Notes under the pieces: generated by a model
What the model was told of the DNA's origin: nothing
What the model saw: only the letters and a program-made list of their open reading frames with translations
The model's database searches: none
Shown: in pieces, positions 22,948 through 42,213 of the stretch
Layout: each line of letters starts with the position of its first letter
Numbering within the stretch: the first letter of the stretch is position 1
Assembly: GCA_026394075.1 (NCBI GenBank)
Contig: JAPKYX010000204.1
Coordinates: forward strand, 1 to 54,799
DNA length: 54,799 nt
DNA from: Acidobacteriota bacterium
GTDB lineage: Bacteria; Acidobacteriota; Terriglobia; Bryobacterales; Bryobacteraceae
Reading direction: 5' to 3'
Translations under genes and position numbers: made by a program

Positions 22948-23054
22948 CCATTTCTCCTATCGATTCCGCCTTCCGTCCGTAGCGCCCCTCCCTGGCACCA
23001 GGCCCCGCAACATGTGATATGTTTTTGGCCAGATTGCTTTGCCAAGGAGTTTTT

Positions 23055-26000
23055 ATGAAGTCCAGATTAATTCTGCTGGCCGCCACTGCCTGCGCGTTGC
23101 TGAACGCCCAACAGGACCGCGGCCTGATCACCGGCGTGGTCAAAGATTCGACCGGCGCCATCATTCCCGATGCGGCGATCACCGCGACGCGCACCGAAAC
23201 CAATGCCATCACCAAGGTCAGCTCCGCTTCTTCAGGCGACTACACACTGCCCTCGCTTGAAATCGGCACCTATACCGTGCGCGTCGAAAAGCAGGGCTTC
23301 AAGGCCGCCATCGCCAAGGACATCATCGTCTCCGCCTCCGGTACCGCCCGTCTCGACATAACGCTGGAAGTCGGCACGACGCAGCAGGCCATCGAAGTGA
23401 CCGCGGCCGGTGTGCAGGTGCAAACCGAGAACGCACGCATCCAGACCGCCGTCGCCAACCGGCTGGTGGACCAGTTGCCGCTGGTTGTCGGCGGTCAGCT
23501 CCGTTCGCCCTTTGATCTTGCCCTGTTGGCACCGGAAGTGAAGGCTCCCAATGACGGCAACAACAACTTCTCGATCGGCGGCGGTCAGGCGGCCACCTAC
23601 GGCGTTTCACTGGACGGCGTTTCTTCAAACACCGGGCGCGCTCTCCAAACGCAATGGGCGGCGATGAATACGCCCTCGCTCGACGCGATCAGCGAGTTCA
23701 CCGTGGATTCCAATGGCTTCAAGGCCGAGTACGGCCGTGCCCAGGGCGGCCAGATGAGCTTCGTCTCGAAATCCGGCACCAATGAGTTCCACGGCAATCT
23801 GTTTGAGTTCCTGCGCAACGACGCGCTGGACGCGGGCTTCTACAATAAGGCCACGAAGAAGCCTGTCTATAAGCAGCACGATTTCGGCGGCACCTTTGGC
23901 GGCCCCATCTGGATCCCGAAGATCTACAACGGCAAGAATAAGTCGTTCTTCTTTGTCTCCTACGAAGGCTTCCGCAACCGCGAAGGCGCGAACCCCAGCT
24001 TCCTGTCGGTGGCTCCCCGGGAGTTCTACGACGGCAACTTCACCAACTGGGTGGACAACAACAACAACCGCATCGCGATTTTCGACCCCACCACCGGCGG
24101 CTCCGGCACCCGGTCGCCCTTTCCGAACAACCAGATTCCGGCGGCACGCTTTGACAGCATCTTCCGGGCGATGAGCCCCATTGGGCAGACCGCCTTGCCC
24201 AACGTTGCTGGCATCACACCGGGCACGTCGGCTTATGTGCGCAATAACTTCATCCAGACGGGCACCCAGGTGGCGCCGTGGGATAAGTTCAGCATCCGTG
24301 GCGATCACAACTTTAACGAGAAGCACCGCATGAGCTTCTATTATTCGGACAACAAGCGCTCCAGTGCGCCCGGTGCGGCGGGTCCGATTGGCCTGCCGGG
24401 TTTTCTGAATGGCAACAACTACAACAACACCACCAGCAAGCAGTACCGCATCAGCTGGGATTGGACGATCAGCTCCAACAAGATCAACCGCTTCTTTGCC
24501 GGTGGCAATGACTGGCGCGAGATCAACCGGGCGTTGGCGGTGGGCGCGCGGCCCTGGAAAGATACCGTTTGTCTGGGCAACGTGCCGGATTGCAACAACA
24601 ACCTGCTGAATGTCTCGCTGGCGGATTTCACGGGCTGGGGCGGCCCCTCCGACAATGGCTCCGACAACGCCGTCTACTCGTTCAATGACGACTTTAGCTG
24701 GATCAAAGGCAAGCACAGCTTCAAGATGGGCGGCCTGTATGAGATGGTGAACTACAGCGGCTTCGGCCAGCAGAACATCATGGGTCAGGCGTCATTCAAC
24801 CGCCGCGTGACGGGGCAGTTGGGTGACTTGGCGAACTTGACCGGATCGGGCTTTGCCAGCTTCATGCTGGGCGGTGCGGTGACCGGCAACATCCATACAC
24901 CGCGCTATGTCGCCCAGCGGTTCCCCTATTACGGCGGCTACTTCCAGGATGACTGGCGTGTCAACCAGAAGTTGACCATCAACTATGGCATCCGTTATGA
25001 CGTCAATGTCTCGCCGTTTTCCGCCGACGATCAGTTCAGCGATTTCAACCCCACGCGCCCCAATCCGGGTGCCAACGGACGTCCGGGCGCACTTGTTTTC
25101 GCGGGCACGGGCGAAGGCCGCGAAGGGCGCCGCCGCTTGGTGGATACCTGGTACGGTGGCTGGGGACCGCGCCTGTCGCTGGCCTATAGCTTGAACGACA
25201 AGACGGTCATCCGCGCTGGCGCAGCGCGCACTTTCGGGGCCGTTCGCGCCGTCGGTGGCTCCACTCACTTCCAGGGATTCGTGCAGATCTACGACACCCC
25301 GCAGGTGGACCCGCAGGGCTTCAACCCCACGTTCCAGCTGCAGAACGGCTTCCCGGCTTGGCCTAAGCCGCCGTTCCTGGTACCGGATTTCAATAACTAC
25401 AACTCGCAGCCCTGGTGGCAAGGCAATGAAGTCAGCCGGGCACCGGAGAACCTGACTTACACCTTCAATCTCCAGCGTCAGATCAACAAAGACACGGTAC
25501 TGGAAGTGGGCTACAACTATGTGCGCGGCACGAACCTGCAGGCCGGCCTGTTGAACTACAACCAGCTGAACCTGGCGTCGCTGCCGGCGAACTTAAGCCC
25601 CTTCACCGCGGCGGGCCGGACGCTGTTGAATTCGCCGATCAGTTCGCCTGCGGCCCAGGCGGCGGGCCTCACGAAGCCCTTTGCCAGCTTCCGCGACAAC
25701 CTGAGTGTGGCGTGGTCGCGGCGGCCGTTCCCGCAGTACAGCACCATCGACACGGCCGGTGGCAATGGCGACCGCAGCGGATCGTCCAAGTATCATGCCT
25801 TTGTCCTGAAACTCGAAAAGCGTTACTCGAGCGGGCTGACCTTCCTCACCAGCTACGTGTTCTCGAAGATCCTCACCGATGCGGATTCGGCCTGGGTTGG
25901 TGGCGCGGCGATGGACCAGAACAACCGCTCGCTGGAATACTCAATCGGCCAGCTGGACCAGACGCACAACCTGAAGTTCAGCTACGTCTATGAGCTGCCG

Positions 26001-26525
26001 TTCGGCAAGGGGCGCAAGTACATGAACGCCGGCGGCTTCAGCAATGTCGTGCTGGGTGGTTGGCGGCTGGGCGGCGTGCAGGTGTACAGCTCCGGCACTC
26101 CCGTCGGCATCGGCACCACGGTCAGCTTCCCCTACTTTGGCGGAGCCAACCGGCCCACTGTTTCCAGCTACGAAGGTTGGCGGACCAATCCGGCCGGTGA
26201 TCGGTTTGATCCCTTCAAGGAGACCTACATCAGCCGCGCCGCGTTCCCGGACCAGCCGACTGACCGGTTGGGCAACATGACCCGCTTCAATCCCAACTTC
26301 CGGTTCCTGCCGAACCTGAGCGAGAACTTCTCCATCGCCAAGGACTTCAACTTCACCGAGAAGATTCGCTTCAACCTCCGCGGCGAAGCTTTCAATGCCT
26401 TCAACCGCGTATTGTGGGGCGGCGTCGGTGGAGCCCAGACTTTGCAGGACCCCAACTTCGGCATCTGGCGCAACCAGATCAACCAGCCGCGTCGCTTGCA
26501 GATTGCTTTGAAGCTCTACTTCTAA
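23055..26525 (+). CDS. Oar-like TonB-dependent outer-membrane receptor 2
   Basis: A 1156-aa paralogue of the preceding receptor with the same order: signal peptide (MKSRLILLAATACALLNAQ), CarboxypepD_reg domain (GVVKDSTGAIIPDAAI, SSGDYTLPSLEIGTYTVRVE), plug region, and barrel ending ALKLYF. ATG 23055 is chosen because AAGGAG lies at 23044-23049 and the signal peptide begins there; an in-frame ATG at 23019 adds 12 residues before it. Blocks shared with receptor 1 run through the whole length, so the pair arose by duplication. The loops between shared blocks differ most, consistent with different ligands. Each gene has its own terminator, so they may be separately expressed. Confidence 0.9.
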   Translation: MKSRLILLAATACALLNAQQDRGLITGVVKDSTGAIIPDAAITATRTETNAITKVSSASSGDYTLPSLEIGTYTVRVEKQGFKAAIAKDIIVSASGTARLDITLEVGTTQQAIEVTAAGVQVQTENARIQTAVANRLVDQLPLVVGGQLRSPFDLALLAPEVKAPNDGNNNFSIGGGQAATYGVSLDGVSSNTGRALQTQWAAMNTPSLDAISEFTVDSNGFKAEYGRAQGGQMSFVSKSGTNEFHGNLFEFLRNDALDAGFYNKATKKPVYKQHDFGGTFGGPIWIPKIYNGKNKSFFFVSYEGFRNREGANPSFLSVAPREFYDGNFTNWVDNNNNRIAIFDPTTGGSGTRSPFPNNQIPAARFDSIFRAMSPIGQTALPNVAGITPGTSAYVRNNFIQTGTQVAPWDKFSIRGDHNFNEKHRMSFYYSDNKRSSAPGAAGPIGLPGFLNGNNYNNTTSKQYRISWDWTISSNKINRFFAGGNDWREINRALAVGARPWKDTVCLGNVPDCNNNLLNVSLADFTGWGGPSDNGSDNAVYSFNDDFSWIKGKHSFKMGGLYEMVNYSGFGQQNIMGQASFNRRVTGQLGDLANLTGSGFASFMLGGAVTGNIHTPRYVAQRFPYYGGYFQDDWRVNQKLTINYGIRYDVNVSPFSADDQFSDFNPTRPNPGANGRPGALVFAGTGEGREGRRRLVDTWYGGWGPRLSLAYSLNDKTVIRAGAARTFGAVRAVGGSTHFQGFVQIYDTPQVDPQGFNPTFQLQNGFPAWPKPPFLVPDFNNYNSQPWWQGNEVSRAPENLTYTFNLQRQINKDTVLEVGYNYVRGTNLQAGLLNYNQLNLASLPANLSPFTAAGRTLLNSPISSPAAQAAGLTKPFASFRDNLSVAWSRRPFPQYSTIDTAGGNGDRSGSSKYHAFVLKLEKRYSSGLTFLTSYVFSKILTDADSAWVGGAAMDQNNRSLEYSIGQLDQTHNLKFSYVYELPFGKGRKYMNAGGFSNVVLGGWRLGGVQVYSSGTPVGIGTTVSFPYFGGANRPTVSSYEGWRTNPAGDRFDPFKETYISRAAFPDQPTDRLGNMTRFNPNFRFLPNLSENFSIAKDFNFTEKIRFNLRGEAFNAFNRVLWGGVGGAQTLQDPNFGIWRNQINQPRRLQIALKLYF

Positions 26526-27439: not shown

Positions 27440-28084
27440 TCAAAACTCAATCGACGCCAGCAGATCGCTCGGCTTCTTCTCAAACGCCCTCGAGATGGCC
27501 AGTAGGCTTTCGATGGAGGGTAAATTCGTCCCCCGCTCAATCGAGCTGATTTGAGATACCGAAAGGCGCGTGGCGGAGGCCAGATCCTTGAGCGACCAGT
27601 CGCGTTCGACGCGCATCATTTTGATGCGGTGGCCTAGCTTTTCGCGTAACCGGTCCTGCGGCGTGCGGCCCAGGCCGAAGGCTTCCAGTGCGTTGTTGAG
27701 TGTCTGGCGGAGTTGGGCGATGGTGAACGGCTTGGCCAGATAGTCAAACGCCTTCTGTTTGAAGGTGGCGCGCATGTCTTCGAGCGACGGGTAGCCGGTG
27801 ACGACAATGACGCAGAGCTGTGGCCAGCGGGCCAGTAATTGTTCCAGCACGCGGTCCCCCCGGACTTCGCCCATCTTCATGTCGAGCAACACGATGTCGG
27901 GCGCTTTTTCGGCTTCCAGCAATCGATCCGCGGCCGCGAAGGTGCGGACGGCGTAGGGGCCTTCGTCGCGCAGGATGTCTTCGACGTAGTTGCGGAAGTC
28001 GAGGTCGTCATCGAGCACGGCCACATCCACGGGAGGCAGCGACGACAGTTCGATCAGTTCAGGAGTGATCTCAGGATTTGGCAC
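27440..28084 (-). CDS. Response regulator with XRE-type HTH output domain
   Basis: A 214-aa regulator. The receiver domain (about residues 18-135) has the acidic pair in AVLDDDLDF, phospho-acceptor Asp68 in IVLLDMKMGE, Thr in VVTGYPS and Lys in YLAKPF. The output domain (about 145-212) is a Cro/C1 (XRE) helix-turn-helix: WSLKDLASATRLSVSQISSIERGTNLPSIESLLAISRAF. That pairing is uncommon; most receivers carry OmpR, NarL or Fis-type outputs. Start GTG 28084 follows GGAGGAG 4 nt upstream, which overlaps the kinase stop region, so both are on one message. The divergent neighbour is the actA operon, the most obvious target. Confidence 0.88.
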   Translation of the reverse strand: MPNPEITPELIELSSLPPVDVAVLDDDLDFRNYVEDILRDEGPYAVRTFAAADRLLEAEKAPDIVLLDMKMGEVRGDRVLEQLLARWPQLCVIVVTGYPSLEDMRATFKQKAFDYLAKPFTIAQLRQTLNNALEAFGLGRTPQDRLREKLGHRIKMMRVERDWSLKDLASATRLSVSQISSIERGTNLPSIESLLAISRAFEKKPSDLLASIEF

Positions 28085-28096
28085 GAAACTCCTCCG

Positions 28097-29542
28097 TTAC
28101 GCGGCCGGCAGCCGCACTTCCAGAGACGCACCGCCGCCGGGACGGTTTGACGCCGCGATAATGCCGCCGTGCTGGGAGATGATCCCCTCAGCCACGGTCA
28201 GCCCCAATCCCGTACCCCGAGCGTCCAGCCGAGTGGTCACAAATGCTTCGAAAATCTCCGGCAGTACCTCGGGCGGAATGCCCGGTCCATCATCTTCCAC
28301 TCTAATCGATACTTCACGTTGTGCGTGGTTGGAGACTGCCGAGGCGGTGGTCTCGATCAGCCCGCCGGGGCCAATCGCATTCAAAGAGTTGCGCAGCAGG
28401 TTCACGAAAACCTGGATCAGCCGGTCGGCGTTGCCCACCACCTTCACGTCCGGTCCCACCAAGTTGCGAAAGTGTACTTCGGCCGATTTTTCATCAATCG
28501 CCACCAACTGCCAGGCCTCTTCAATCAGCGGCTGCAGGGCGACCGGCTCCATTTCCTGCTTCCGGACTCGGGCGAAATCCACCAGGCTTTCCGAGATCTT
28601 CTTCAGTCGTTGGGCCACGCGCTTCATGCGGGCCAGCCGCTCCTGCACCGCCGCCCGCTTTTCCGTTTCTTCCAGCTTCTCGATCGAACCCAACAGCACG
28701 GCCAGTGGCGTATTCATCTCGTGGGCCACCGAGGCCGACAGCAGGCCTAGACTGGCTAGCCGGTCCTGCTCCTCCAGCGACCGCTTGGCGGCCTCCAGCG
28801 CCTCCTCCTGAGCCCGCAAATTGGCCACGGCGGCATTCCGGCTTTTCATGATCCGGCCAATTTCATCACCCATGATCAGCTTGCTGGGAATCAGTTCCTC
28901 TTCCCGCCGCCCCGCTTGGACCGCCGCGTCGGCATCGAGGAAATGCTGAATGGGTCCATACACATAGCGCGGCATGATGGCCAGCTCCAGCACGGCAATG
29001 GCCAGGGTATAGAGAATTCCGAGCACCAGGAAAATCGTGATTTTGGCGCGCTGAACGACGCTATCGTAGAAGACGTTGGGCACGCTGACACGGCGGAACA
29101 GGCCGGAGCCGGGCATCAACCGGAACAGCGCATCCTGGGCATCGTCGTTGTACACCTGACCGGGGTGTAACTCTAGCCAATTGATAATTTTCGGCGGAAT
29201 GCCTAACGCCAGGGCCGAACCCTCCCGATAATCGTATAGCTCCATCCCGGGGACCTGGAAGACGACGCGGTCCTGGAGAAAGAGCTTCGTCAGGAGAGAA
29301 ACTTCGCGCGCTTTGGCCGTCGCCACCCGCTGCTCAAACAGTGGGATCAGTGAAAAATAAACGCTCGCTCCCAGGAGCAGAAAGAATAAGTTGTGCAAAA
29401 CCATCAACTTAGGGCGAACCTTCAGATCGCCGAACAGGCGCCCCAGTGGGCCCGGACGCTCGGTCGACGGCTTCGGCAAGCTCCAGCGGACGCGGGGAGC
29501 CGTGAGGAACCGGTAGGCCGTAGCGGAATTGCGGTCAGACAA
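28097..29542 (-). CDS. Membrane sensor histidine kinase
   Basis: A 481-aa kinase. TM1 lies at about residues 45-68, followed by an extracytoplasmic domain of roughly 100 residues without Cys or His pattern, and TM2 at about 155-180. A HAMP-like linker and coiled coil come next. The phospho-acceptor is His274 in VAHEMNTPLA. The ATPase domain has NLLRNSLNAI (N box), DDGPGIPPEV (G1) and GTGLGLTVAEGI (G2). The start is TTG 29542, supported by AGGAGA 8 nt upstream (29556-29551). It is the first gene of the kinase-regulator pair and is divergent from actA, with 108 bp between. The signal is unknown; a quinone or redox cue would fit the neighbours but is inference. Confidence 0.9.
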   Translation of the reverse strand: MSDRNSATAYRFLTAPRVRWSLPKPSTERPGPLGRLFGDLKVRPKLMVLHNLFFLLLGASVYFSLIPLFEQRVATAKAREVSLLTKLFLQDRVVFQVPGMELYDYREGSALALGIPPKIINWLELHPGQVYNDDAQDALFRLMPGSGLFRRVSVPNVFYDSVVQRAKITIFLVLGILYTLAIAVLELAIMPRYVYGPIQHFLDADAAVQAGRREEELIPSKLIMGDEIGRIMKSRNAAVANLRAQEEALEAAKRSLEEQDRLASLGLLSASVAHEMNTPLAVLLGSIEKLEETEKRAAVQERLARMKRVAQRLKKISESLVDFARVRKQEMEPVALQPLIEEAWQLVAIDEKSAEVHFRNLVGPDVKVVGNADRLIQVFVNLLRNSLNAIGPGGLIETTASAVSNHAQREVSIRVEDDGPGIPPEVLPEIFEAFVTTRLDARGTGLGLTVAEGIISQHGGIIAASNRPGGGASLEVRLPAA

Positions 29543-29650
29543 GAAAATTTTCTCCTATTGCGGAAATTCTACGGCCATGGTAGAAAAATAGACAGTCGTC
29601 CGACCATTCTTCCAGGTTTCTGAGTCGACGAAAGTGCGTGCTTCGAATCA

Positions 29651-30291
29651 ATGCCCCTCTTTACACGGCAACATGACCTGATCGCGCGGGCTGCCACTGC
29701 GCTACTTGCTGTAGGCGTCTTGTCTGGCGCCGCGGCTTATGCCTATTTCTCCCATCCACTGGTGATCGATGTCGGTTACCAGCCTCACCAGCCTGTCCCG
29801 TACAGCCACAAGCTGCACGCGGGCAATCTGGGCATGGATTGCTACTACTGCCACAATACAGTGGAAAAGGCGGCCCATGCGGCGGTGCCTCCCACCGAGA
29901 CTTGCATGAACTGCCACGTCCGGGTGAAGCCGGAGAGCCCCTTGTTGGCCCCCGTCCGCGCCAGCTACAAGACTGGCCAGCCGGTGGAGTGGGTGAAAAT
30001 CCACAAGCTCCCCGACTACGTGTTCTTTAACCACTCGGCGCACATCACAGCCGGTGTCAGCTGCGTCTCATGCCACGGGCGCGTGGACCAGATGATTGAA
30101 GTGAAGCAGGTGCAACCCCTGTCGATGGGCTGGTGCGTGGACTGCCACCGCAACCCGGCCGCCAAGATTCGCCCCACCGAACTGGTGACGAATCTGTCGT
30201 GGACGCCTGATCGTGATCCGGCCGAAATTGGCCGTGAACTGATCGCCCAGAAAAAGATAGCTCCTCCCGTCAACTGTTCGGGGTGTCACCG

Positions 30292-30295
<4 letters not shown>
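29651..30295 (+). CDS. actA: ActA, pentahaem cytochrome c of Alternative Complex III
   Basis: A 214-aa membrane-anchored multihaem protein, the first gene of the respiratory operon. One N-terminal hydrophobic segment (about residues 14-33) anchors it. Five haem c sites are visible: CYYCH, CMNCH, CVSCH, CVDCH and CSGCH, the last close to the C-terminus. In studied complexes ActA works with ActE in passing electrons from the quinol site and Fe-S subunit to the oxidase. The stop overlaps the actB ATG (ATGA). No good Shine-Dalgarno sequence precedes ATG 29651; the divergent kinase gene lies 108 bp upstream. Confidence 0.93.
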
Positions 30296-33277
<2,982 letters not shown>

Positions 33278-33285
<8 letters not shown>

Positions 33286-34684
33286 TCTGGCAATTAAATC
33301 TCCCGAAATGCTGGACGAGGTGACACCGCGCCTGGTCCAGGGCAACTCGACCTATAGCTCGCTGACCAACGACATCAGCCGGATTGTCGAACGCGATACG
33401 CCCATTCAGTGGTGGATGGCCTTCCTGCCATCCGTCGCGGTGGCGGGCATGATGTTTGCCATGTTGGGCTACCTGGTGATCACCGGTATCGGTGTCTGGG
33501 GCAACAACTCGCCGATCGGCTGGGCTTGGGACATCACGAACTTCGTCTGGTGGATCGGTATCGGCCACGCCGGTACCTTGATCTCGGCTATCTTGTTCCT
33601 ATTCCGCCAGAAGTGGCGTACTTCGATCAACCGTGCGGCCGAAGCGATGACTTTGTTCGCCGTCGCTTGCGCGGCCCAATACCCGCTGTTCCACACTGGC
33701 CGTCCGTGGCGCGCGCTGTACTGGCTGTTCCCGCTGCCCAATACGGATCTGAACATGTGGCAGAACTTCCGTTCGCCGCTGGAGTGGGACGTCTTCGCCG
33801 TGTCCACCTACGGTACGGTGTCGGCGCTGTTCTGGTTTGTCGGACTGGTGCCCGATTTGGCGACGCTGCGTGACCGGGCGACCGGTGTTCGCGCCTACGT
33901 TCTGGGCTTCGCTTCGCTGGGCTGGCGCGGATCTGCCCGCCACTGGCGCCATTACGAAATGGCGTACCTGATTCTGGCCGGTCTCTCGACCCCGCTGGTG
34001 CTCTCGGTGCACACGATCGTGTCGTTCGACTTCGCGGTGTCGCTGATTCCGGGTTGGCACACGACGATCTTCCCTCCCTACTTCGTCGCCGGCGCTATCT
34101 TCTCCGGCTTCGCCATGGTGGTGACGCTGATGACCGTGGCCCGCTGGTCGCTCCAGTTGGAGCACCTGATTACCACCAAGCACTTGGAGAACATGTGCAA
34201 GGTGATGCTGGCCACCAGCATGATTGTCGGCTACGCCTATGGAACGGAACTGTTCATTGCCTGGTACTCCGGCAATCCCTACGAGCAGTTTGCATTTGCC
34301 AACCGCGCGATGGGGCCCTACTGGTGGGCCTACTGGTCGATGGTCAGCTGCAACGTGATTACGCCGCAAATATTCTGGTTCAAGAAGTGCCGGACCAGCG
34401 TGCCGATCATGTTCGTCGCTTCCATCTTCATCAACATTGGTATGTGGTTTGAGCGGTTCGTGATTATCGTCACCTCACTCCACCGGGACTTCCTGCCCTC
34501 CAGTTGGGGCTACTTCCACCCGACCTATGTCGACATCTTCACGTTCATTGGAACGATGGGCTTGTTCATGACCCTGTTCCTGCTGTTTATCCGCTTCCTG
34601 CCGGTGATTGCCATCAGTGAAGTGAAGGGTGTGCTGGCCCAAGAGGACCATGTCACCAAGCACGGCCACGGGGCCCATCATTAA
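33278..34684 (+). CDS. actC: ActC, NrfD-like quinol-interacting membrane subunit
   Basis: A 468-aa polytopic protein of the NrfD/PsrC family with about ten membrane helices. In known Alternative Complex III structures this subunit carries the menaquinol site facing ActB. Visible features include [21 protein letters not shown] and the histidine-rich [19 protein letters not shown] segment. It ends with a His-rich tail ([11 protein letters not shown]). AAGGA lies 5 nt before ATG 33278, inside the end of actB. It is paralogous in fold to actF further down the operon, as is normal for this complex. Confidence 0.95.
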
Positions 34685-34703
34685 TCCGAGGAGCATGGAG
34701 CGA

Positions 34704-35303
34704 ATGGAAAACTCATCCCTGCCCGCTGCGCTGGAACAGAAAGAACTCCATGGCATCGCCGCGGCGTTCGAGAGTCCCGACAAGCTGCTGAAAGCAGCCA
34801 AGGCCGTGCGCAAGAGCGGCTTTACGAAGGTGGAAGCCTACACGCCGTTCCCAATCCACGGCATTGACGATATCCTTGGTATCCCGCACTCGCACCTGGG
34901 CCGCATTGTCATCTGCTGTGGCGCTATCGGTGCCACCGCCGCGCTGTCCCTGATTGCCTGGACCGGTTCCGGTGATCCGCTGCTGCTCCCTTATTGGACT
35001 GGCTTGGGCGCCTATCCGTTGGTTGTGGGCGGCAAGCCGCTGTTTGCCTTCGAGCCGTCGATTCCGATCACTTTTGAATTGACGGTACTTCTGTCCGCCT
35101 TCGGCGCAGTGTTTGGAATGTTCGCGTTGAACGGACTTCCGCAGTTGTATCACCCGATCTTCAATTTCCGTCACGCCAACCGCATCACCGACGATCAGTT
35201 CGTGCTGGTGATCGAGAAGGCGGACCCCAAGTTTGACGCCACCGAGTGTACGCGGCTCCTCCAGGAACTGGACCCGGTCTCGGTGGAGATGGTGGAAGAA
35301 TGA
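34704..35303 (+). CDS. actD: ActD, DUF3341 membrane subunit of Alternative Complex III
   Basis: A 199-aa protein. The N-terminal cytoplasmic domain contains the typical FESPDKLLKAAKAVRKSGF and VEAYTPFPIHGIDDILGI sequence. Two membrane helices follow (about residues 68-90 and 115-140), then a C-terminal cytoplasmic domain (ITDDQFVLVIEKADPKFD). It is structural in the known complex. Start: ATG 34704, with AGGAG 10 nt before it; ATG 34695 is in frame and only 1 nt from that AGGAG, so less likely. The stop overlaps actE (ATGA). Confidence 0.92.
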   Translation: MENSSLPAALEQKELHGIAAAFESPDKLLKAAKAVRKSGFTKVEAYTPFPIHGIDDILGIPHSHLGRIVICCGAIGATAALSLIAWTGSGDPLLLPYWTGLGAYPLVVGGKPLFAFEPSIPITFELTVLLSAFGAVFGMFALNGLPQLYHPIFNFRHANRITDDQFVLVIEKADPKFDATECTRLLQELDPVSVEMVEE

Positions 35304-35908
35304 GCCTCAAACGCATCACACCGCTGGCGGCACTCCTGATGGCGGCGGCGCTACTGGCCGGTTGCTCCGGCCCCCAGCGCGTCCCTCCGATTGAAGTCTG
35401 GCCGGACATGGACCGCCAGGAAAAGTTTAAGGCCCAATCCGGTACAGCACTGTTTGCTGACGGCCGCTCCAATCGGGCCCCGGTTGAGGGTACGGTGGCC
35501 GTCGGCCAGTTGCGGGAGGACACGATCTTCTCCGCCGGCCTCGAGAACGGGCAGTACACTGGCAAGAACCCGGTGGAGGTGACGCCTGAGCTGTTGAAGC
35601 AGGGCCAACGCCGCTTCAACACTTACTGCTCACCTTGCCACGACCGCACCGGTCAGGGCGGGGGCGTGGTTCCCAAGAAAGCCGCCGGCTGGATCCCGAC
35701 CAACCTCATGGACCCCCGCATTCTGGGCGTCAATGACGGTGAGCTGTACAACGTGATTTCCCACGGCCGCCGGTCGATGCCGGGCTACCGCTTCCAGATC
35801 GTGGAGCGGGACCGCTGGGCGATCGTCGCCTACGTCCGGGCCCTCCAGCGTTCGACGCTGGGCACGGTGGAGGATGTGCCGACTGAATTGCGGAGCGAAC
35901 TTCGATGA
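35300..35908 (+). CDS. actE: ActE, monohaem cytochrome c lipoprotein of Alternative Complex III
   Basis: A 202-aa lipoprotein cytochrome. The signal peptide ends in a lipobox (ALLAGC, Cys about residue 21), so the mature protein is lipid-anchored in the periplasm. The haem c site CSPCH is at residues 110-114, with a probable Met ligand in HGRRSMPGYRF. It is the likely electron exit of the complex towards the cytochrome domain of CoxB. ATG 35300 overlaps the actD stop; its own stop overlaps actF (ATGA). Confidence 0.93.
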   Translation: MSLKRITPLAALLMAAALLAGCSGPQRVPPIEVWPDMDRQEKFKAQSGTALFADGRSNRAPVEGTVAVGQLREDTIFSAGLENGQYTGKNPVEVTPELLKQGQRRFNTYCSPCHDRTGQGGGVVPKKAAGWIPTNLMDPRILGVNDGELYNVISHGRRSMPGYRFQIVERDRWAIVAYVRALQRSTLGTVEDVPTELRSELR

Positions 35909-37113
35909 TTGAATACGCAACTTTAGATCACTCGCGGGAATCCTGGCGCCTGGATGAAACCGTCTGGACCCGTGTCCGGAATGTGATTGCCTTCCTGATG
36001 CTGCTGGGTTGGGCGGGCTGCGCGGCGGGTTACGTGCAGGACTCCGACCGCTTCTTCCGCTCCTACCTGGTGGGCTTTCTGGATATGACCCTGATCGCCC
36101 TAGGCTGCCTGTTTTTCGTCATGGTGATGTACCTGACTGGTTCGGCGTGGAGCGTCACGGTCCGGCGCATCTTTGAAACCGTCATGGTGACCATTCCCTT
36201 GGCCGCGGTACTGGTCCTGCCCGTTCTTGGCGGCATCCACAATTTGTACGAGTGGTCCCACAGTGAGCATGTGGCACACGACAAGATCCTTCTAGGCAAG
36301 TCGGCGTGGCTGAACCCGGAAGCGTTTGTGATCCGGGCCTTCGTATATGTCCTGATCTGGTCGGTGATCGCCATTCGGATCTACACGAATTCGACGGCGC
36401 AGGACAAGACGAAGTCGGTGAAGCACATGGACAGCACTTCGACGTGGTCGGCTCCCGGCCTGCTGCTGGTCTTTCTCAGTGTTTCGACGGCAGCCTTTGA
36501 TTGGATTATGTCGTTGAATCCTCACTGGTACTCGACGATTTTTGGGATTTATGTTTACGCCGGCGGCGGCTTGGCCTGCATCGCCACGGTTACCGTGATC
36601 TGCCTTTGGCTTCGGCGGCACGGCATCCTGGCGCAGTCCATCAACCTGGAGCACTACCATGATCTGGGCAAATGGATGTTCGCGCTGACCGTGTTTTGGG
36701 CCTATATCGCCTTCTCTCAGTACATGCTGATCTGGTATGCCAACCTGGCGGAAGAGACAGTGTTCTACTCAAAGCGTTTGGTGGGGAGCTGGAAGTTCGT
36801 CAGTGGTCTGCTGTTGTTCGGCCACTTCATCGTGCCCTTCTTCTTCCTGATCCAGCGCCGCGTGAAGCGGAACCTGGGTGCGCTGCTGGCGGCGGCGCTC
36901 TGGATTCTGACCATCTGCTACATCGACCTTTACTGGCTGGTCATGCCTAACTTTGACAAGGAAGGCGTCCGCCTCCACTGGCTGGATGCGGTGGCCTGGT
37001 TGGCGGTGGCGTCGACCTATGCCTTCGCCTTCTGGTGGCAGCTGAAGAAGCACTCGCTCGTCCCTGAGGGCGATGCGCGGTTGGAACAATCGTTGGCTCA
37101 CGTGAACGTCTAG
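35905..37113 (+). CDS. actF: ActF, second NrfD-like membrane subunit
   Basis: A 402-aa polytopic protein with about ten helices, related to ActC. It contains conserved segments FSQYMLIWYANLAEETVFY and FFFLIQRRVKRNLGALL, typical of ActF. In resolved complexes it forms the second half of the membrane part and may take part in proton movement; no quinol site has been shown for it. It overlaps actE by ATGA and is followed after 13 nt by a small single-TM gene preceded by GGGAG. Confidence 0.93.
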   Translation: MIEYATLDHSRESWRLDETVWTRVRNVIAFLMLLGWAGCAAGYVQDSDRFFRSYLVGFLDMTLIALGCLFFVMVMYLTGSAWSVTVRRIFETVMVTIPLAAVLVLPVLGGIHNLYEWSHSEHVAHDKILLGKSAWLNPEAFVIRAFVYVLIWSVIAIRIYTNSTAQDKTKSVKHMDSTSTWSAPGLLLVFLSVSTAAFDWIMSLNPHWYSTIFGIYVYAGGGLACIATVTVICLWLRRHGILAQSINLEHYHDLGKWMFALTVFWAYIAFSQYMLIWYANLAEETVFYSKRLVGSWKFVSGLLLFGHFIVPFFFLIQRRVKRNLGALLAAALWILTICYIDLYWLVMPNFDKEGVRLHWLDAVAWLAVASTYAFAFWWQLKKHSLVPEGDARLEQSLAHVNV

Positions 37114-37126
37114 GGAGCAAAACGCC

Positions 37127-37600
37127 ATGTCTGAATCGAAAACCCTAACTCCCGAACAGATTGCGGCTCTCGAAAAAGAGGGCTTCGACCGGAATGATCC
37201 CAGCGGCCCGTGGGTACTGGCCTTTGCTGCTGGTATCGTGATCACGCTGGTGCTGGTGGTGTTGGCCGTGGACTACTTGTTCCAAGCGACGCTGGACCAG
37301 AACATCAACGACAGCGTGCTGACGCAGGACAGCCCGGAGCTGCAAGAGATCCGGACGAAAGAAGCTGAGCAGCTGAATCACTATCGTTATGCCGATGCGG
37401 AGAAGAAGGCCGTGCGGCTGCCGATCGACCGGGCCATGGAACTTTTTGCCGTCGAAGCGAAGTCGGGTAAGCTTTTCTACCCCACTAAGCCCTCTCCGGT
37501 AAAGGCTCCGGAGCCTGACGCTGCCGCTGCGGGAGCAGCTCCGGCCGCCGCCGCCACATCAACGCCCACACCCGCTCCAGGAGCCGCGCCCCACAAGTGA
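37127..37600 (+). CDS. Single-TM protein with Ala/Pro tail in the act-cox operon (157 aa)
   Basis: I do not recognise a named family. The N-terminal 30 residues are soluble and acidic. One membrane helix is at about 28-50 (GPWVLAFAAGIVITLVLVVLAVDYLF). Next comes a periplasmic region with a helical stretch (ELQEIRTKEAEQLNHYRYAD) and IDRAMELFAVEA, then an Ala/Pro/Thr-rich flexible tail from about 120. GGGAG lies 9 nt before the ATG, and the stop overlaps the sco GTG (GTGA). Position between actF and sco suggests an accessory or assembly subunit of the complex or oxidase. Known Alternative Complex III operons often hold an extra small gene here, but I cannot assign it to ActG or ActH. Confidence 0.78.
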   Translation: MSESKTLTPEQIAALEKEGFDRNDPSGPWVLAFAAGIVITLVLVVLAVDYLFQATLDQNINDSVLTQDSPELQEIRTKEAEQLNHYRYADAEKKAVRLPIDRAMELFAVEAKSGKLFYPTKPSPVKAPEPDAAAAGAAPAAAATSTPTPAPGAAPHK

Positions 37601-38427
37601 CGCGAATCCTGCCAGCTGCGGTGGTGACGTGGATGCTCCTGCTAGGGAGCGTCAGCGCACCCGTTTGGGCGAAAGACCCCGAAAAGCCCCGCGAACTGGA
37701 AGGCGTCGGAGTGGATGAGCAGCTGGGGCGGACCATTGACTTGAATTTGGAGTTCATGGGCCTTGATGGCTATCCGAAGGCGTTGAAGCAGTATTTCCGC
37801 CAAGGTCGGCCGGTGATTCTCAATCTGGTCTATTACACCTGCCCGATGCTGTGCAATTTGGTGCTGAACGGAGAGACCGCAGTTCTGCGCGAGATTCCGT
37901 GGACGCCGGGCAAGGAATACGACGTCATTACGATTTCGATCGACCCGACGGAGACCTGGAATCTGGCGGCGAACAAGCGTCAAACGGTGCTGTCCAGCTT
38001 TGACCGTCCGGCGCCGGGCTGGCACTTCTTTGCCGACTATCAGGGCAACGTCAAGAAGCTGGCGGAACAAGTGGGCTGGCGGTACAAGTTTGATGCCAAG
38101 ACGCAGCAGTATGCGCACTCTTCGGCCATCATGATTTTGACACCGGAAGGAAAGGTCTCCCGGTACTTGTACGGCATCAGATATAAGCCGCAGGACGTGC
38201 GGTTGGCTTTAGCCGAGGCGGGCGAAGAAAAGATCGGCCCGTTGACGGTGGACAAGTTGCTGTTGTGGTGCTTTCACTACGACCCCAAGGCGGGTGCCTA
38301 TGTGGTTGCGGCGACCAATGTCATGAAGGCCGGTGGAGTATTGACCATGCTGGCGATTGGACTGTTTTTACTCAAAATGTTTCGGGGAGAGCGTAAGGCC
38401 GTGCCCCAATTGGCGGTGAATCAATGA
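37597..38427 (+). CDS. sco: SCO1/SenC copper chaperone for the oxidase CuA site
   Basis: A 276-aa thioredoxin-fold protein that delivers copper to, or reduces, the CuA site of subunit II. It has an N-terminal signal or anchor (about residues 3-24), the copper-binding CPMLC at residues 82-86 and the third ligand His in YAHSSAIMIL. Unusually for short SCO proteins, it also has a C-terminal membrane helix (VLTMLAIGLFLLKMF), so it is tail-anchored. Start GTG 37597 is inferred from the GTGA overlap. Its stop overlaps coxB (ATGA), placing it exactly before its expected client. Confidence 0.92.
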   Translation: MTRILPAAVVTWMLLLGSVSAPVWAKDPEKPRELEGVGVDEQLGRTIDLNLEFMGLDGYPKALKQYFRQGRPVILNLVYYTCPMLCNLVLNGETAVLREIPWTPGKEYDVITISIDPTETWNLAANKRQTVLSSFDRPAPGWHFFADYQGNVKKLAEQVGWRYKFDAKTQQYAHSSAIMILTPEGKVSRYLYGIRYKPQDVRLALAEAGEEKIGPLTVDKLLLWCFHYDPKAGAYVVAATNVMKAGGVLTMLAIGLFLLKMFRGERKAVPQLAVNQ

Positions 38428-39365
38428 GCTGGTTTCGTGACTTCTTTTTGCCCATGCAAGGGACTTCGCATGCGGTCGCGGTGGACAACCTCTTTATGTT
38501 CATTGTGTTTCTCAATATCGGGTTCTTCCTGCTGATTGCCGGGTTGATCGGGGTTTTCGTGCTGCGCTACCGGCGCAAGTCTGCCAATGACCGGACGCCC
38601 AACATTACCCACCATCTTGGGTTGGAGCTGACGTGGTCCATCATCCCGTTGTTGTTGTGCCTGGTCGTCTTCTTCTGGGGCTTCAAGGACTACATGACGG
38701 CGACGGTGGCTCCGGGCGACGCCTTGGAGATCAGCTTGACGGGCGAGAAATGGATTTGGACCTTCGAATATCCGGACGGCATGCGTTCGCTGGGTGAGCT
38801 TTATGTCCCCGCCGGCAAGCCGGTGAAGTTGATCATGCAGTCCAAAGACGTCCTGCACAGCTTCTTCATTCCGAATTTCCGGATCAAAATGGACGTTTTG
38901 CCAAACCGCTACACGGAACAATGGTTCCAGTCGAACATCCCGGGCGAGTACCAAGTGCAGTGCACCGAATACTGCGGCAAAGGTCACTCCGGCATGAACG
39001 CCAAGATTGTGGTGATGTCCCAAACGCAGTATGAGGATTATCTGCAGAATGGCCCTCCCAATCTGCGGACGATGCCCCTGGCTGAGCTGGGTGCGCTGCT
39101 CTATGAATCCCGCGGTTGCGCCACCTGCCACTCGTTGAATGGTGTCAAGGGCCAGGGCCCCACCTGGAAGGGTTCCTACGGCAACATGCGCAAGATGACG
39201 GATGGCCGCGACATGATGATGGATGAAAACTACATCCGGACCTCGATTCTGCAACCGCAGTCGATGGTGGTGAGCGGTTTTGAAGGCATCATGCCTACGT
39301 ATCAGGGTTTGCTGCGTGATCGCGAGATCCTCGCGCTGATCGAATTCATCAAGAAGCAGAAGTAG
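38424..39365 (+). CDS. coxB: Cytochrome c oxidase subunit II with fused cytochrome c (caa3 type)
   Basis: A 313-aa subunit. Two N-terminal membrane helices (about residues 20-45 and 65-90) are followed by the CuA cupredoxin domain: Cys180, Cys184, His188 and Met191 in [14 protein letters not shown]-terminal cytochrome c domain has CATCH at 232-236 and a probable Met ligand near [11 protein letters not shown]. The fused haem makes this a caa3 oxidase, able to take electrons from Alternative Complex III directly. It overlaps sco by ATGA. Confidence 0.96.
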
Positions 39366-39390: not shown

Positions 39391-41040
39391 ATGGCTACCA
39401 CAAGTACTCCGGTAACGCATCACGGCGGACATCACGCCGCCCACGCCAGCTTTTTGGAAGACCCGCAGCACCGCGGGCTGATGAGCTGGCTCACCACTGT
39501 TGATCACAAGCGCATCGGCCTGATGTACCTCTGGTCGGTACTGACGGCGTTTCTTCTGGGCGGGTTGTTCGCCTTGGCGCTGCGTTTGGAACTGCTGACG
39601 CCGAAAGAGGATTTCATGACAGCGGAGACGTACAACAAGGTCTTCACGCTGCACGGCGCGGTCATGGTGTTCTTGTTCATCATCCCGGCCATCCCGGCCG
39701 CACTGGGCAATTTCGTGTTGCCGCTGATGCTGGGTGCCAAAGACGTGGCCTTCCCCCGTCTAAACCTGGCCAGCTACTACGTCTACATGACCGGCGCGAT
39801 CATGGCGCTGACGGCCATTCTGACCGGCGGCATCGACACTGGCTGGACGTTCTACACGCCCTACTCCACCACTACCGGTGGCGCGGTGACGCTGATGACG
39901 TTCTCGGTGTTCGTGCTTGGGTTCTCGTCGATCTTTACAGGCATCAACTTTGTGGCGACCGTGCACAAGCTGCGCGCGCCGGGTATGGGCTGGTTCGACC
40001 TGCCGCTGTTCGTCTGGGGCACCTACGCCACGGCGATCATCCAGGTGCTGGCTACTCCGGTGCTGGCGATCACGCTGCTGCTGCTGGCCTTTGAGCGCAT
40101 GTTCCAGATCGGCATTTTCGATGCCAAGCTGGGCGGCGACCCAGTGCTGTTCCAGCACTTCTTCTGGTTCTATTCGCACCCCGCCGTGTACATCATGATT
40201 CTGCCGGGCATGGCGATCATTTCCGAGATCATCCCGACTTTCTCAAAGAAGCACATTTTCGGGTACCGGGCGATCGCGTTCTCTTCGGTGGCTATCGCAC
40301 TGATCAGCTTCATCGTTTGGGGCCACCACATGTTCACCTCCGGCCAATCTCAATTGGCGGCGGTGATCTTCTCGTTCCTCACCTTCCTGGTGGCTATTCC
40401 CTCCGGCATCAAGGTGTTTAACTGGGTGGCGACCATGTACCGGGGCTCCATAGCGCTTGATACGCCGATGCTTTATGCCATCTCGTTCCTGCTGCTGTTC
40501 ACCATTGGCGGCCTGACCGGAATCTTCCTGGGTGCCCTCAGCGTTGACATCCACCTGCACGATACGTATTTCATCGTGGCTCACTTCCATTACGTGATGA
40601 TGGGCGGCACGGTGATCGCGTTCCTGGCCGGTGTTCACTACTGGTGGCCGAAGATGTTCGGCCGCATGTACAACGAGACCTGGGCGCGCATTGGCTGCAT
40701 CCTGGTGTTCTTCGGCTTTAACATTACCTTCCTGAACCAGTTCGCCATGGGTGCCAAGGGCATGCCTCGCCGCTACTACAGCTATCTGGACCAGTTCCAG
40801 GGCAACCACATTGGATCTACGGTTGGAAGCTGGGTTCTGGCGTTGGGCTTGTTTATCGCCGCTGGCGTGCTGCTGGCTTCGCTGCGCAAGAAGTATGACG
40901 CTCCCGATAATCCCTGGGGTTCCAAGACCATGGAATGGGAGACCCAGTCTCCGCCGATCACCCACAATTTCCCGAACAATCCTGTGATGCAGCACGGCCC
41001 GTATGACTACAATGCGCCGTCTGTCCGGCGGGAAGCCTAA
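39391..41040 (+). CDS. coxA: Cytochrome c oxidase subunit I (A2-type, caa3)
   Basis: A 549-aa catalytic subunit with about 12 helices. Haem a and CuB ligands are all visible: His in [21 protein letters not shown] (His263 and the cross-linked Tyr267), WGHHMFTSG (CuB His pair), and [17 protein letters not shown] (haem ligands). The YSHPAVY motif, rather than GHPEVY, places it in the A2 subfamily of haem-copper oxidases, which pumps protons without the D-channel Glu. The N-terminus has a His-rich patch ([10 protein letters not shown]). It is the third of four coupled oxidase assembly and structure genes. Confidence 0.97.
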
Positions 41041-41060: not shown

Positions 41061-41747
41061 ATGTCTTCTCACACGCTACCGGCTCCGGGCGACACCCACG
41101 GCCACGACGATCACGGGCATCATGACCCGAACCTGCAGCACCATTTCGTGGAAATGGCGCAACAGTTCGACACGGCCAAGCTGGGCATGTGGCTCTTTCT
41201 GGCAACAGAAATCCTGATGTTCGGTGGTCTGTTTGTCGGCTTCGGCTTGCAGCAGGCTAAGTTTCCGGAAGCTTTCAAGGCCGCGCACCATCATCTGGAC
41301 CGGACCATGGGCGCGCTCAACACCGTCGTCCTGCTGATCTCCAGCTTCACGATGGTGCTGGCCGTTTGGGCTGCGCAAACCGGTCGGCGGAAGGTGCTGA
41401 TCACCAACCTGGCCTTGACGCTCGTCTGCGCTGGAACCTTCCTGGTGGTCAAGTACTTTGAGTACAGCCACAAGATCCACGATGGTCTGCTGCCGGGCAA
41501 GTTTTTCCATTACGCCCAGGGGCAGCCCAACGAATACATCTTCTTCAGCTTCTACTTCATGATGACCGGCCTGCACGGATCCCACGTGATTCTGGGCATG
41601 GGTGCCATCACCTGGTTGCTGATCCGGGCGATCAAGGGCGACTTTGGCCCGGGCTATTACACCCCGGTCGACTTGGTTGGCCTCTTCTGGCACTTGGTCG
41701 ACTTGATCTGGATCTACCTGTTCCCGCTGTTGTACCTGATTGGATAG
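41061..41747 (+). CDS. coxC: Cytochrome c oxidase subunit III
   Basis: A 228-aa membrane subunit. After a His/Asp-rich N-terminus (HGHDDHGHHDPNLQHH) it shows helices such as KLGMWLFLATEILMFGGLFVGF (the conserved subunit III opening) and FYFMMTGLHGSHVILGMGAI, which carries the family's conserved Gly-His. It stabilises subunit I and proton uptake. AGGAG lies 12 nt upstream of ATG. The end, LFWHLVDLIWIYLFPLLYL, is typical. Confidence 0.95.
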   Translation: MSSHTLPAPGDTHGHDDHGHHDPNLQHHFVEMAQQFDTAKLGMWLFLATEILMFGGLFVGFGLQQAKFPEAFKAAHHHLDRTMGALNTVVLLISSFTMVLAVWAAQTGRRKVLITNLALTLVCAGTFLVVKYFEYSHKIHDGLLPGKFFHYAQGQPNEYIFFSFYFMMTGLHGSHVILGMGAITWLLIRAIKGDFGPGYYTPVDLVGLFWHLVDLIWIYLFPLLYLIG

Positions 41748-41751
41748 ACGA

Positions 41752-42213
41752 ATGAGCCACCACGCACCCTCTACTACCTCGGGCGGACACGCCGCCGGCC
41801 ATCATGACCATTCCAACGACTGGAAGCTGTACCTGGGCATTCTGCTCGCGCTGCTGGTCTTGACGGTGGTTACCGTAGCGGCGGCCAGTTTTGACTTTGG
41901 ATCGGCCAACGTCATCATCGCGGTCCTGATCGCTACCTGCAAGGCCACATTGGTGGCGCTGTTTTTCATGCACCTGCGCCATGACAGCCCCGTCAATGCG
42001 ATCATCTTCTTGTCATCGCTACTGTTTCTGTCTTTCCTTTTGATCCTGTGCATCATCGATATTGGCAGCCGCATCGAACCGAAACCCGCCAACTGGAAGG
42101 GCCCCTCGCCGGGTCTGATCTCGCCGGCCGACCTGGACAAGCCGGTGGTTCCCGCTGGAACGGCCCCCGCCGCTGGCGCTGCTCCAGCAGCGGCTCCGGC
42201 GCCCAAGCACTAA
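41752..42213 (+). CDS. coxD: Cytochrome c oxidase subunit IV (CtaF-like)
   Basis: A 153-aa small subunit with a His-rich N-terminus (HHAPSTTSGGHAAGHHDH) and three helices: YLGILLALLVLTVVTVAAA, NVIIAVLIATCKATLVALFFMHL (the family's conserved middle helix, ending in MHLRHD) and the third at FLSSLLFLSFLLILCIIDI. The C-terminus is an Ala/Pro tail much like that of the single-TM protein at 37127. Start ATG 41752 is 4 nt after the coxC stop; the longer in-frame TTG start inside coxC is unlikely. Confidence 0.9.
   Translation: MSHHAPSTTSGGHAAGHHDHSNDWKLYLGILLALLVLTVVTVAAASFDFGSANVIIAVLIATCKATLVALFFMHLRHDSPVNAIIFLSSLLFLSFLLILCIIDIGSRIEPKPANWKGPSPGLISPADLDKPVVPAGTAPAAGAAPAAAPAPKH

Follow-up and report, generated by a model that had tools for sequence, protein, structure and literature searches.

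A receiver-XRE two-component pair facing the alternative complex III-caa3 operon in Bryobacteraceae, and a candidate operator upstream of actA

The kinase-regulator pair and the operon opposite it

We analysed a stretch of 54,799 nucleotides from a member of the Bryobacteraceae (Acidobacteriota; GenBank assembly GCA_026394075.1, contig JAPKYX010000204.1), called the window below, in which the genes of a response regulator and a sensor histidine kinase lie back to back with an operon for alternative complex III (ACIII) and a caa3-type oxidase (Table 1). The kinase gene recurs beside actA, the first gene of that operon, in many relatives, and a conserved palindrome upstream of actA accompanies the pair; both observations point to a dedicated system that probably controls the operon.

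The original prediction had described the regulator as a normal receiver with Asp68 joined to an XRE-type helix-turn-helix (HTH), and the family matches agreed with this: residues 21-129 matched PF00072 (Response_reg, E 1.3e-19, Pfam) and residues 154-208 matched PF01381 (HTH_3, E 6.3e-13; 49 bits for a curated cut-off of 23), which places the protein among the two-component receivers and in the XRE/Cro-CI family. Alignment of 17 regulators showed that Asp25, Asp68 and Lys118 were invariant, the Asp68 of the window's own sequence included, and that the HTH core SxSQ(I/L)SxIERG was invariant or nearly so. Only one strong copy of the regulator was found in its own genome; the next best of the seven matches had an E of 4e-13, and the six weaker ones concerned chiefly the receiver part.

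The kinase matched PF00512 and PF02518, as expected of a sensor histidine kinase, with His274 located within a conserved AHE, and two membrane spans were recognised by eye. Comparison of 22 aligned kinases showed that the segment FGDLKVRPKLxxLHNxFF, before and in the first membrane span and with His50 and Asn51 in its LHNxFF part, was conserved, and that the extracytoplasmic loop (about residues 66-165) was variable and shortened or missing in several sequences, including those of the actA-linked loci L072, L095 and L096. Because the loop varies or is lost while the segment at the first span is conserved, sensing is more probably located in, or at, the membrane than based on a periplasmic ligand. 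Loci L048, L071, L072, L085 and L095 encode members of this kinase family in which most or all of the loop is gone.

The kinase (reverse strand) and actA (forward strand, start at 29651) are divergent and separated by 108 bp (29543-29650), exactly as the original prediction had it. The genes downstream of actA fit an ACIII-caa3 superoperon, in which ACIII is followed by SCO1, COX2 with a cytochrome c domain, COX1 and COX3. The subunit families of actA, actB, actC, actD and actE were found in this order, which assigns the operon to ACIII, actF being placed by position alone; the open reading frame (ORF) at 35905-37113 is presumably actF, in line with the usual ACIII gene order, and that at 41740-42213 is presumably coxD, from its position. 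A survey of 61 genomes showed actA genes of two kinds, a close type (>300 bits) and a distant type (about 200 bits), and several genomes had both.

Table 1. Features of the kinase-regulator pair, the intervening region and the divergent operon in the window
Feature	Position	Strand	Remarks
REC-XRE response regulator	27440..28084	-	GTG start, 214 aa; phospho-acceptor Asp68, Lys118; HTH_3 154-208
Sensor histidine kinase	28097..29542	-	TTG start, AGGAG 29552-29556; 481 aa; HisKA, H-box His274, HATPase_c
Candidate operator site 1	29529..29545		TTGCGGTCAGACAAGAA; right half consensus, left half degenerate; overlaps kinase start codon; matrix 16.9, shuffle p 0.01
Candidate operator site 2	29549..29565		20 bp on; right half TTGCGGAA kept across lineages; may instead be -35 element
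Candidate operator site 3	29569..29585		40 bp on; right half GGTAGAA conserved; may instead be extended -10
Putative actA core promoter	29558..29586	+	-35-like TTGCGG 29558-29563, 17 bp, extended -10-like TGGTAGAAA 29578-29586; deduced from conserved block
actA, multiheme cytochrome c subunit of ACIII (c7-type)	29651..30295	+	family matches
actB, TAT-type molybdopterin-like and Fe-S subunit	30283..33285	+	TIGR04519 above cut-off
actC, NrfD-type membrane subunit	33278..34684	+	family match
actD	34629..35303	+	PF11821; true start perhaps further downstream
actE, mono-heme cytochrome c	35246..35908	+	family match; true start perhaps further downstream
actF (presumed)	35905..37113	+	from position; nothing matched in Pfam or NCBIfam
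SCO1/SenC-type copper chaperone	37597..38427	+	family match
coxB, subunit II with cytochrome c domain (caa3 type)	38424..39365	+	family match
coxA, subunit I	39391..41040	+	family match
coxC, subunit III	41061..41747	+	family match
Probable coxD, subunit IV	41740..42213	+	from position

Distribution of the pair and its linkage to actA

We then compared 200 genomes of the family, mostly metagenome assemblies, using cut-offs of E<=1e-75 for the close-type actA and for the kinase and of E<=1e-60 for the regulator; counts were also made by genus since the genomes are related. Close-type actA was found in 80 genomes, the kinase in 110 and the regulator in 109. The original prediction had suggested counting how often such regulators lie near actA in relatives, and the result was not a random scatter: the regulator was present in 71 of the 80 genomes with a close-type actA vs 38 of the 120 without it (Fisher 1.9e-16), and in 25/29 vs 12/47 genera, respectively (p 2.7e-7). 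Kinase and regulator occurred together in 105 genomes, the kinase alone in five and the regulator alone in four.

The kinase was divergent from and adjacent to the close-type actA in 58 of the 80 genomes (by a manual count, in 20 of 29 genera), a recurrence which argues that the arrangement is due to more than chance. The regulator was also adjacent in 42 of these 58, was elsewhere in 14 and was not found in two (G161 and G243). Both genes were away from actA in 14 further genomes, on other contigs in ten and, in four (G015, G131, G152 and G113), with the kinase on the contig of actA but at a great distance from it. The separation seen in G002 results from contig ends only, its kinase contig starting with an actA fragment. 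Among the remaining close-actA genomes, G018 (62% complete) had the regulator only, and seven were scored as having neither gene at these cut-offs, although one of the seven, G100, carries a 41% identical kinase directly beside actA.

A regulator match at E 1e-20 was found in 25 of the 61 genomes (own included). A scan of named genomes yielded 274 relatives, and among the best 80 of them actA was divergent from the kinase with the same geometry in 25; among the others, five kinases and three regulators lay near a contig end, and locus L105 had a kinase with actA about 3 kb further off. The isolate KBS 96 (L035) is one relative with the pair adjoining actA. When 92 regulators were placed on a quickly built tree, the label of actA linkage (29 rows) required 11 changes vs 24.9 when shuffled. 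The linkage is spread widely over this tree, as might be expected of an ancient arrangement with repeated losses.

Other surroundings of the pair were also seen. It directly follows an ABC exporter-like gene (about 615 aa, named by eye) at L041, L044, L046, L112 and other loci. One clade of 20 rows (L042, L045, L050, L062, L084 and others) consists of REC-XRE regulators without an adjacent kinase, and their neighbours are presumably a family-2-like glycosyltransferase (HpnB-like) or a squalene/phytoene-synthase-like gene, some lying near what we take to be ilv-like genes. The regulator of G026 is of this kinase-less type, yet its kinase still adjoins actA. The record of L045 is titled Bordetella parapertussis; its regulator groups inside Bryobacterales, and it is probably a mislabelled metagenome bin. 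In the window, a MqsR/MqsA toxin-antitoxin pair (PF15723 and PF15731; 26694-27411) lies directly past the 3' end of the regulator gene on the other strand, and MqsA is also present at the same-genus locus L033. We take the two consecutive genes at 19355-22891 and 23019-26525 to encode proteins of about 1170 aa resembling TonB-dependent, Oar-like outer-membrane receptors.

A conserved palindrome before actA and other genes

The upstream regions of actA in the actA-linked loci share a conserved block whose core is the 17-bp, XRE-like palindrome TTCYTGT-N3-ACARGAA. The kinase start codon lies inside this palindrome, so a coding constraint had to be excluded, for which the genomes with the pair elsewhere were used. 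The palindrome was kept at 13-14 of 14 positions in 11 of 13 such genomes (genera g68, g83 and g14), and a tblastn search of as much as 1.3 kb before actA found no kinase gene in any of the 13; the kinase start codon therefore cannot explain the palindrome. Conversely, no site was found before actA in any of the five testable genomes without the pair (G012, G097, G129, G134 and G162, from three genera; best score 9). The site of G100 scored 12 and goes with its diverged kinase, and G021 offered only 90 bp of upstream sequence. These comparisons support the conclusion that the palindrome tracks the kinase-regulator pair rather than the neighbouring gene. The original prediction had placed binding in the region shared by kinase and actA, and a conserved palindrome does lie upstream of actA; the best candidate in the window, however, lies mostly within the first codons of the kinase, so the fragment proposed for binding assays (29543-29650) would cut through it.

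A symmetrised matrix built from 16 actA sites gave p<=0.01 at actA in 24 of 28 actA-linked loci, in 13 of 14 genomes with the regulator elsewhere and in 11 of 13 with both genes elsewhere, in a comparison that is partly circular (the 16 training sites were among those tested) and in which the loci are not independent. The same threshold was reached in G100, G243, G161 and the window, and G018 had a p of 0.015. Averaged over 32 sequences, the score profile around their best sites peaked at +40 bp (z 4.5) and +20 bp (z 3.7), and the three candidate sites of the window thus appear to form a ladder with a pitch of 20 bp, in which the right halves of the second and third sites could equally be the -35 and extended -10 elements of an actA promoter.

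One rival explanation is that the block is the actA core promoter together with the ribosome-binding site and start codon of the kinase, and holds no operator. Site 1 overlaps the TTG start and adjoins the AGGAG, and TTGCGG and TGGTAGAA are spaced by 17 bp in the manner of -35 and -10 elements. Such an explanation is very unlikely, given that a near-perfect palindrome is found in 11 genomes without a kinase gene at that place, that an exact one also precedes ctaB in genus g63, and that a consensus promoter scan of 29450-29700 found no standard promoter. A second possibility is that the regulator represses the superoperon in the manner of a phage repressor until the signal lifts the repression. 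Repression is a common role of XRE proteins, the predicted -35 and -10 are covered by sites 2 and 3, and the palindrome of genus g68 lies, by eye, where the -35 is expected; in the other lineages inspected, however, the main palindrome is upstream of the predicted promoter. We regard repression as possible but rather unlikely and favour activation, as a matter of judgement, because the promoter that follows the ladder departs from the consensus and because the -35 of G012, which has actA without the pair, reads better by eye, as would fit dependence on an activator elsewhere.

Some candidates were rejected. The inverted repeat TTCTAC-N7-GTAGAA (29567-29585) has a left arm that is not conserved in relatives, and the palindrome was not seen, by eye, in four upstream regions of distant-type actA. 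Autoregulation was dismissed as the chief function of the pair: where actA is missing from the locus, no site scoring at least 12 lies directly before the regulator or the kinase, the nearest being located about 345 bp before the exporter-kinase-regulator cluster of L054.

Whole-genome scans for the perfect palindrome (<=1 mismatch) in G061 and G062, which are closely related to each other, gave two places per genome, one in front of actA and one just in front of the gene that precedes ctaB. A second place in G063, a one-mismatch site inside an unrelated gene, was rejected as a target. The exact pattern with its Y/R positions was found at 32 sites in 31 of the 200 genomes. Eleven were located about 130-205 bp upstream of actA (genera g68, g5, g83 and g57) and five about 45-120 bp upstream of ctaB (genus g63); that of G242, at a contig end, has the same sequence context as the g63 ctaB sites and is likely a sixth. 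Two sites at one orthologous place (G181 and G215, genus g5) lie about 60 bp before the ATP synthase b', b and delta genes, of which b and delta pass the Pfam cut-offs and b' falls short (23.2 vs 28). At these loci (L331 and L332), the site is at 1501-1517, and the actA sites of both genomes are less perfect. Inspection of 12 of the other 13 sites (G169 left out) showed that 11 are inside an ORF and that the site of G118 is just before an ATG within a longer ORF. A reversed control pattern gave more matches overall than the palindrome, so the motif is not enriched; the signal is in where the matches fall.

In five g63 genomes, the sole exact palindrome is the one before ctaB, the gene of heme O synthase (TIGR01473 above cut-off), which is followed by an SCO1 gene in G099. 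Kinase and regulator were both found in G099, G175 and G212; another member of the genus, G149 (L044), has an exporter-linked pair. The gene before ctaB in G062 (P0003) scored below the cut-offs of Pfam and NCBIfam and shares about 34% identity with genes matching COX15-CtaA, e.g. those of G015 and G000, so that its label as ctaA is a weak one drawn from position and slight similarity.

We also scanned up to 1.4 kb before ctaB with the actA-trained matrix in 60 genomes chosen from the 185 with ctaB, the stretches of G189 and G243 being short; none of these stretches had served to train the matrix. A shuffle p<=0.033 was obtained in 9 of 16 close-actA genomes (G243, one of these, has no detected regulator), 5 of 24 with the regulator but without close actA and 2 of 20 regulator-negative genomes. 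Median best scores were 11.0 with regulator and close actA, 6.7 with the regulator only and 5.3 without the regulator (all regulator-positive vs regulator-negative, p 0.003). Three matches (G126, G131 and G160) are palindrome-like with a weaker second site 20 bp on (9-10 of 14). G030 (L370), where the regulator was not detected, also has a site before ctaB, followed after 20 bp by a weak second site; G139, of the same genus, has the pair. Before ctaA, a second block was conserved at L265, L267, L268, L269 and L271, consisting of TGCGAAAAA followed by TTCTTGT-N3-GGTAGAAT, or of sequences very like these. It resembles the actA promoter block. It is ambiguous as an operator and was not retained, since it also occurs in G007 (L246) without a detected regulator; it enters the ctaB test through six of the nine matches in genomes with regulator and close actA and through that of G007, all of the TTCTTGT-N3-GGTAGAA type or near it (right half GGTAGAA or GTAGAA). 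These points weaken the ctaA part of the interpretation. The rest of it gains from the ATP synthase sites and from the clean background of two-mismatch sites, none of the 20 being near the act, cox, kinase, regulator or ATP synthase genes searched.

Predicted function and comparison with known systems

We consider it likely that the pair is a dedicated two-component system controlling the ACIII-caa3 superoperon, comparable to RegBA and HrrSA but with an XRE output, and in some lineages also heme O synthesis. The respiratory role suggested by the original prediction thus gains support from the divergent position of the kinase beside actA and from a palindrome that tracks the pair. The membrane kinase would sense the state of the membrane or of the respiratory chain and, as is usual in its family, would phosphorylate Asp68 of the regulator. 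The XRE domain, presumably as a dimer, would bind the 17-bp palindrome about 90-200 bp upstream of actA, within a ladder of sites at a 20-bp pitch, and the bound regulator would set transcription of actA-F, sco and cox. Regulator sites may also precede ctaB, or the ctaA or ctaA-like gene before it, in some relatives; with sites shared by actA and ctaB/ctaA, synthesis of the oxidase would be coupled to that of its heme. Perhaps the ATP synthase is also under the control of the pair in some lineages.

Several findings weigh against this interpretation, and some favour an alternative in which another regulator reads the palindrome and the pair lies beside actA for a different reason (control of itself only, or a broad envelope regulon). 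Thirteen of the 32 exact sites are elsewhere (G000, G103, G118, G155, G167, G169, G174, G176, G183, G191, G198, G227 and G241), G007 and G030, among the 20 regulator-negative genomes, keep sites before ctaA/ctaB, and 35 of the 105 genomes with kinase and regulator have no close-type actA, their pair being located elsewhere, e.g. beside an ABC exporter. The operator is a candidate from sequence, and another regulator of the same phyletic spread could own it. This alternative nevertheless seems improbable to us: the site stays at actA when the pair is elsewhere and is missing from every testable genome without both genes, loci without actA have no such site directly before the regulator or kinase, and a palindrome of this kind is what an XRE dimer would be expected to read. 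The other points against control of the superoperon through this palindrome concern the sites themselves. The left half-site of the window is degenerate (TTGCGGT), genus g77 (G113 and G155) has kinase, regulator and close actA but no site, and the scores at actA are weak in L035, L038, L072, L129 and G128. All 20 two-mismatch sites taken from G061, G062, G064 and G065, four genomes that carry the pair, are inside ORFs. As for ctaB, 19 of the 24 tested genomes with kinase and regulator but without close actA have no upstream site at p<=0.033, six of the nine matches in genomes with regulator and close actA (G013, G122, G130, G147, G174 and G190) may be promoter elements, and the window's own genome has no ctaA/ctaB site (matrix, p 0.44). 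The g63 site-bearers G203, G236 and G242 (79% complete) have, respectively, the kinase only, the regulator only and neither at the cut-offs.

A wider reading, which we put forward tentatively and hold to be doubtful, is that of an undescribed system in which the kinase would sense quinone or redox state through the juxtamembrane LHNxFF, its extracytoplasmic loop being dispensable, and would act with the XRE regulator as a master switch of oxidative phosphorylation across Bryobacteraceae, reaching ACIII, the caa3 oxidase, heme O/A synthesis and, in some lineages, the ATP synthase. If this were true, ACIII would have its first assigned regulator, and REC-XRE regulators their first regulon and operator. 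The defined pair and the predicted 17-bp operator make control of the ACIII-caa3 operon directly testable. Expression of ACIII-caa3 superoperons is reported to shift with oxygen in some Acidobacteriota in a strain-dependent manner (PMC8407424), in strains that are not shown to carry the pair. No paper assigning a regulator to ACIII, or an operator to any REC-XRE regulator, was found among the matches listed by our search, which lay mostly outside subscription journals, and phrase searches returned none on REC-XRE or XRE-type response regulators, which is weak evidence of absence.

The known systems closest in description have other outputs. RegA-type regulators end in a Fis-type HTH and HrrA is of the LuxR-type family, unlike the XRE domain found here. 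ResDE of Bacillus subtilis controls ctaA/ctaB and respiratory genes, and is thus similar in its targets, but belongs to another phylum and has an OmpR-type output in ResD; it is likened to the pair by description only. DdrO, an XRE regulator of Deinococcus, has no receiver domain. The likeness to RegB/RegA (PrrBA, ActSR) lies in a membrane kinase and a response regulator acting on respiratory and oxidase genes (PMC5506826), as is proposed for the present pair. Scores of 40.5 for the regulator (NF033791, cut-off 250) and 93.5 for the kinase (NF033792, cut-off 350) place the pair outside the RegBA/PrrBA/ActSR families. HrrSA of Corynebacterium glutamicum is reported to be a two-component system controlling the complex III-aa3 genes plus ctaB/ctaA (PMC7337898). 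There, complex III is bc1 instead of ACIII and the signal is heme; this likeness also is one of description only. Comparison with solved structures showed that the XRE half resembles DdrO, with a homologous HTH over regulator residues 149-214 (PDB 6rmq and others), and that the receiver half resembles NtrX/NtrC-type proteins; in none of the 52 solved sequences matched at E<=1e-5 did the best stretch span both domains. The motif of DdrO is also reported to be 17 bp wide (PMC12565409), and the protein to be cleaved by a protease (PMC5552922).

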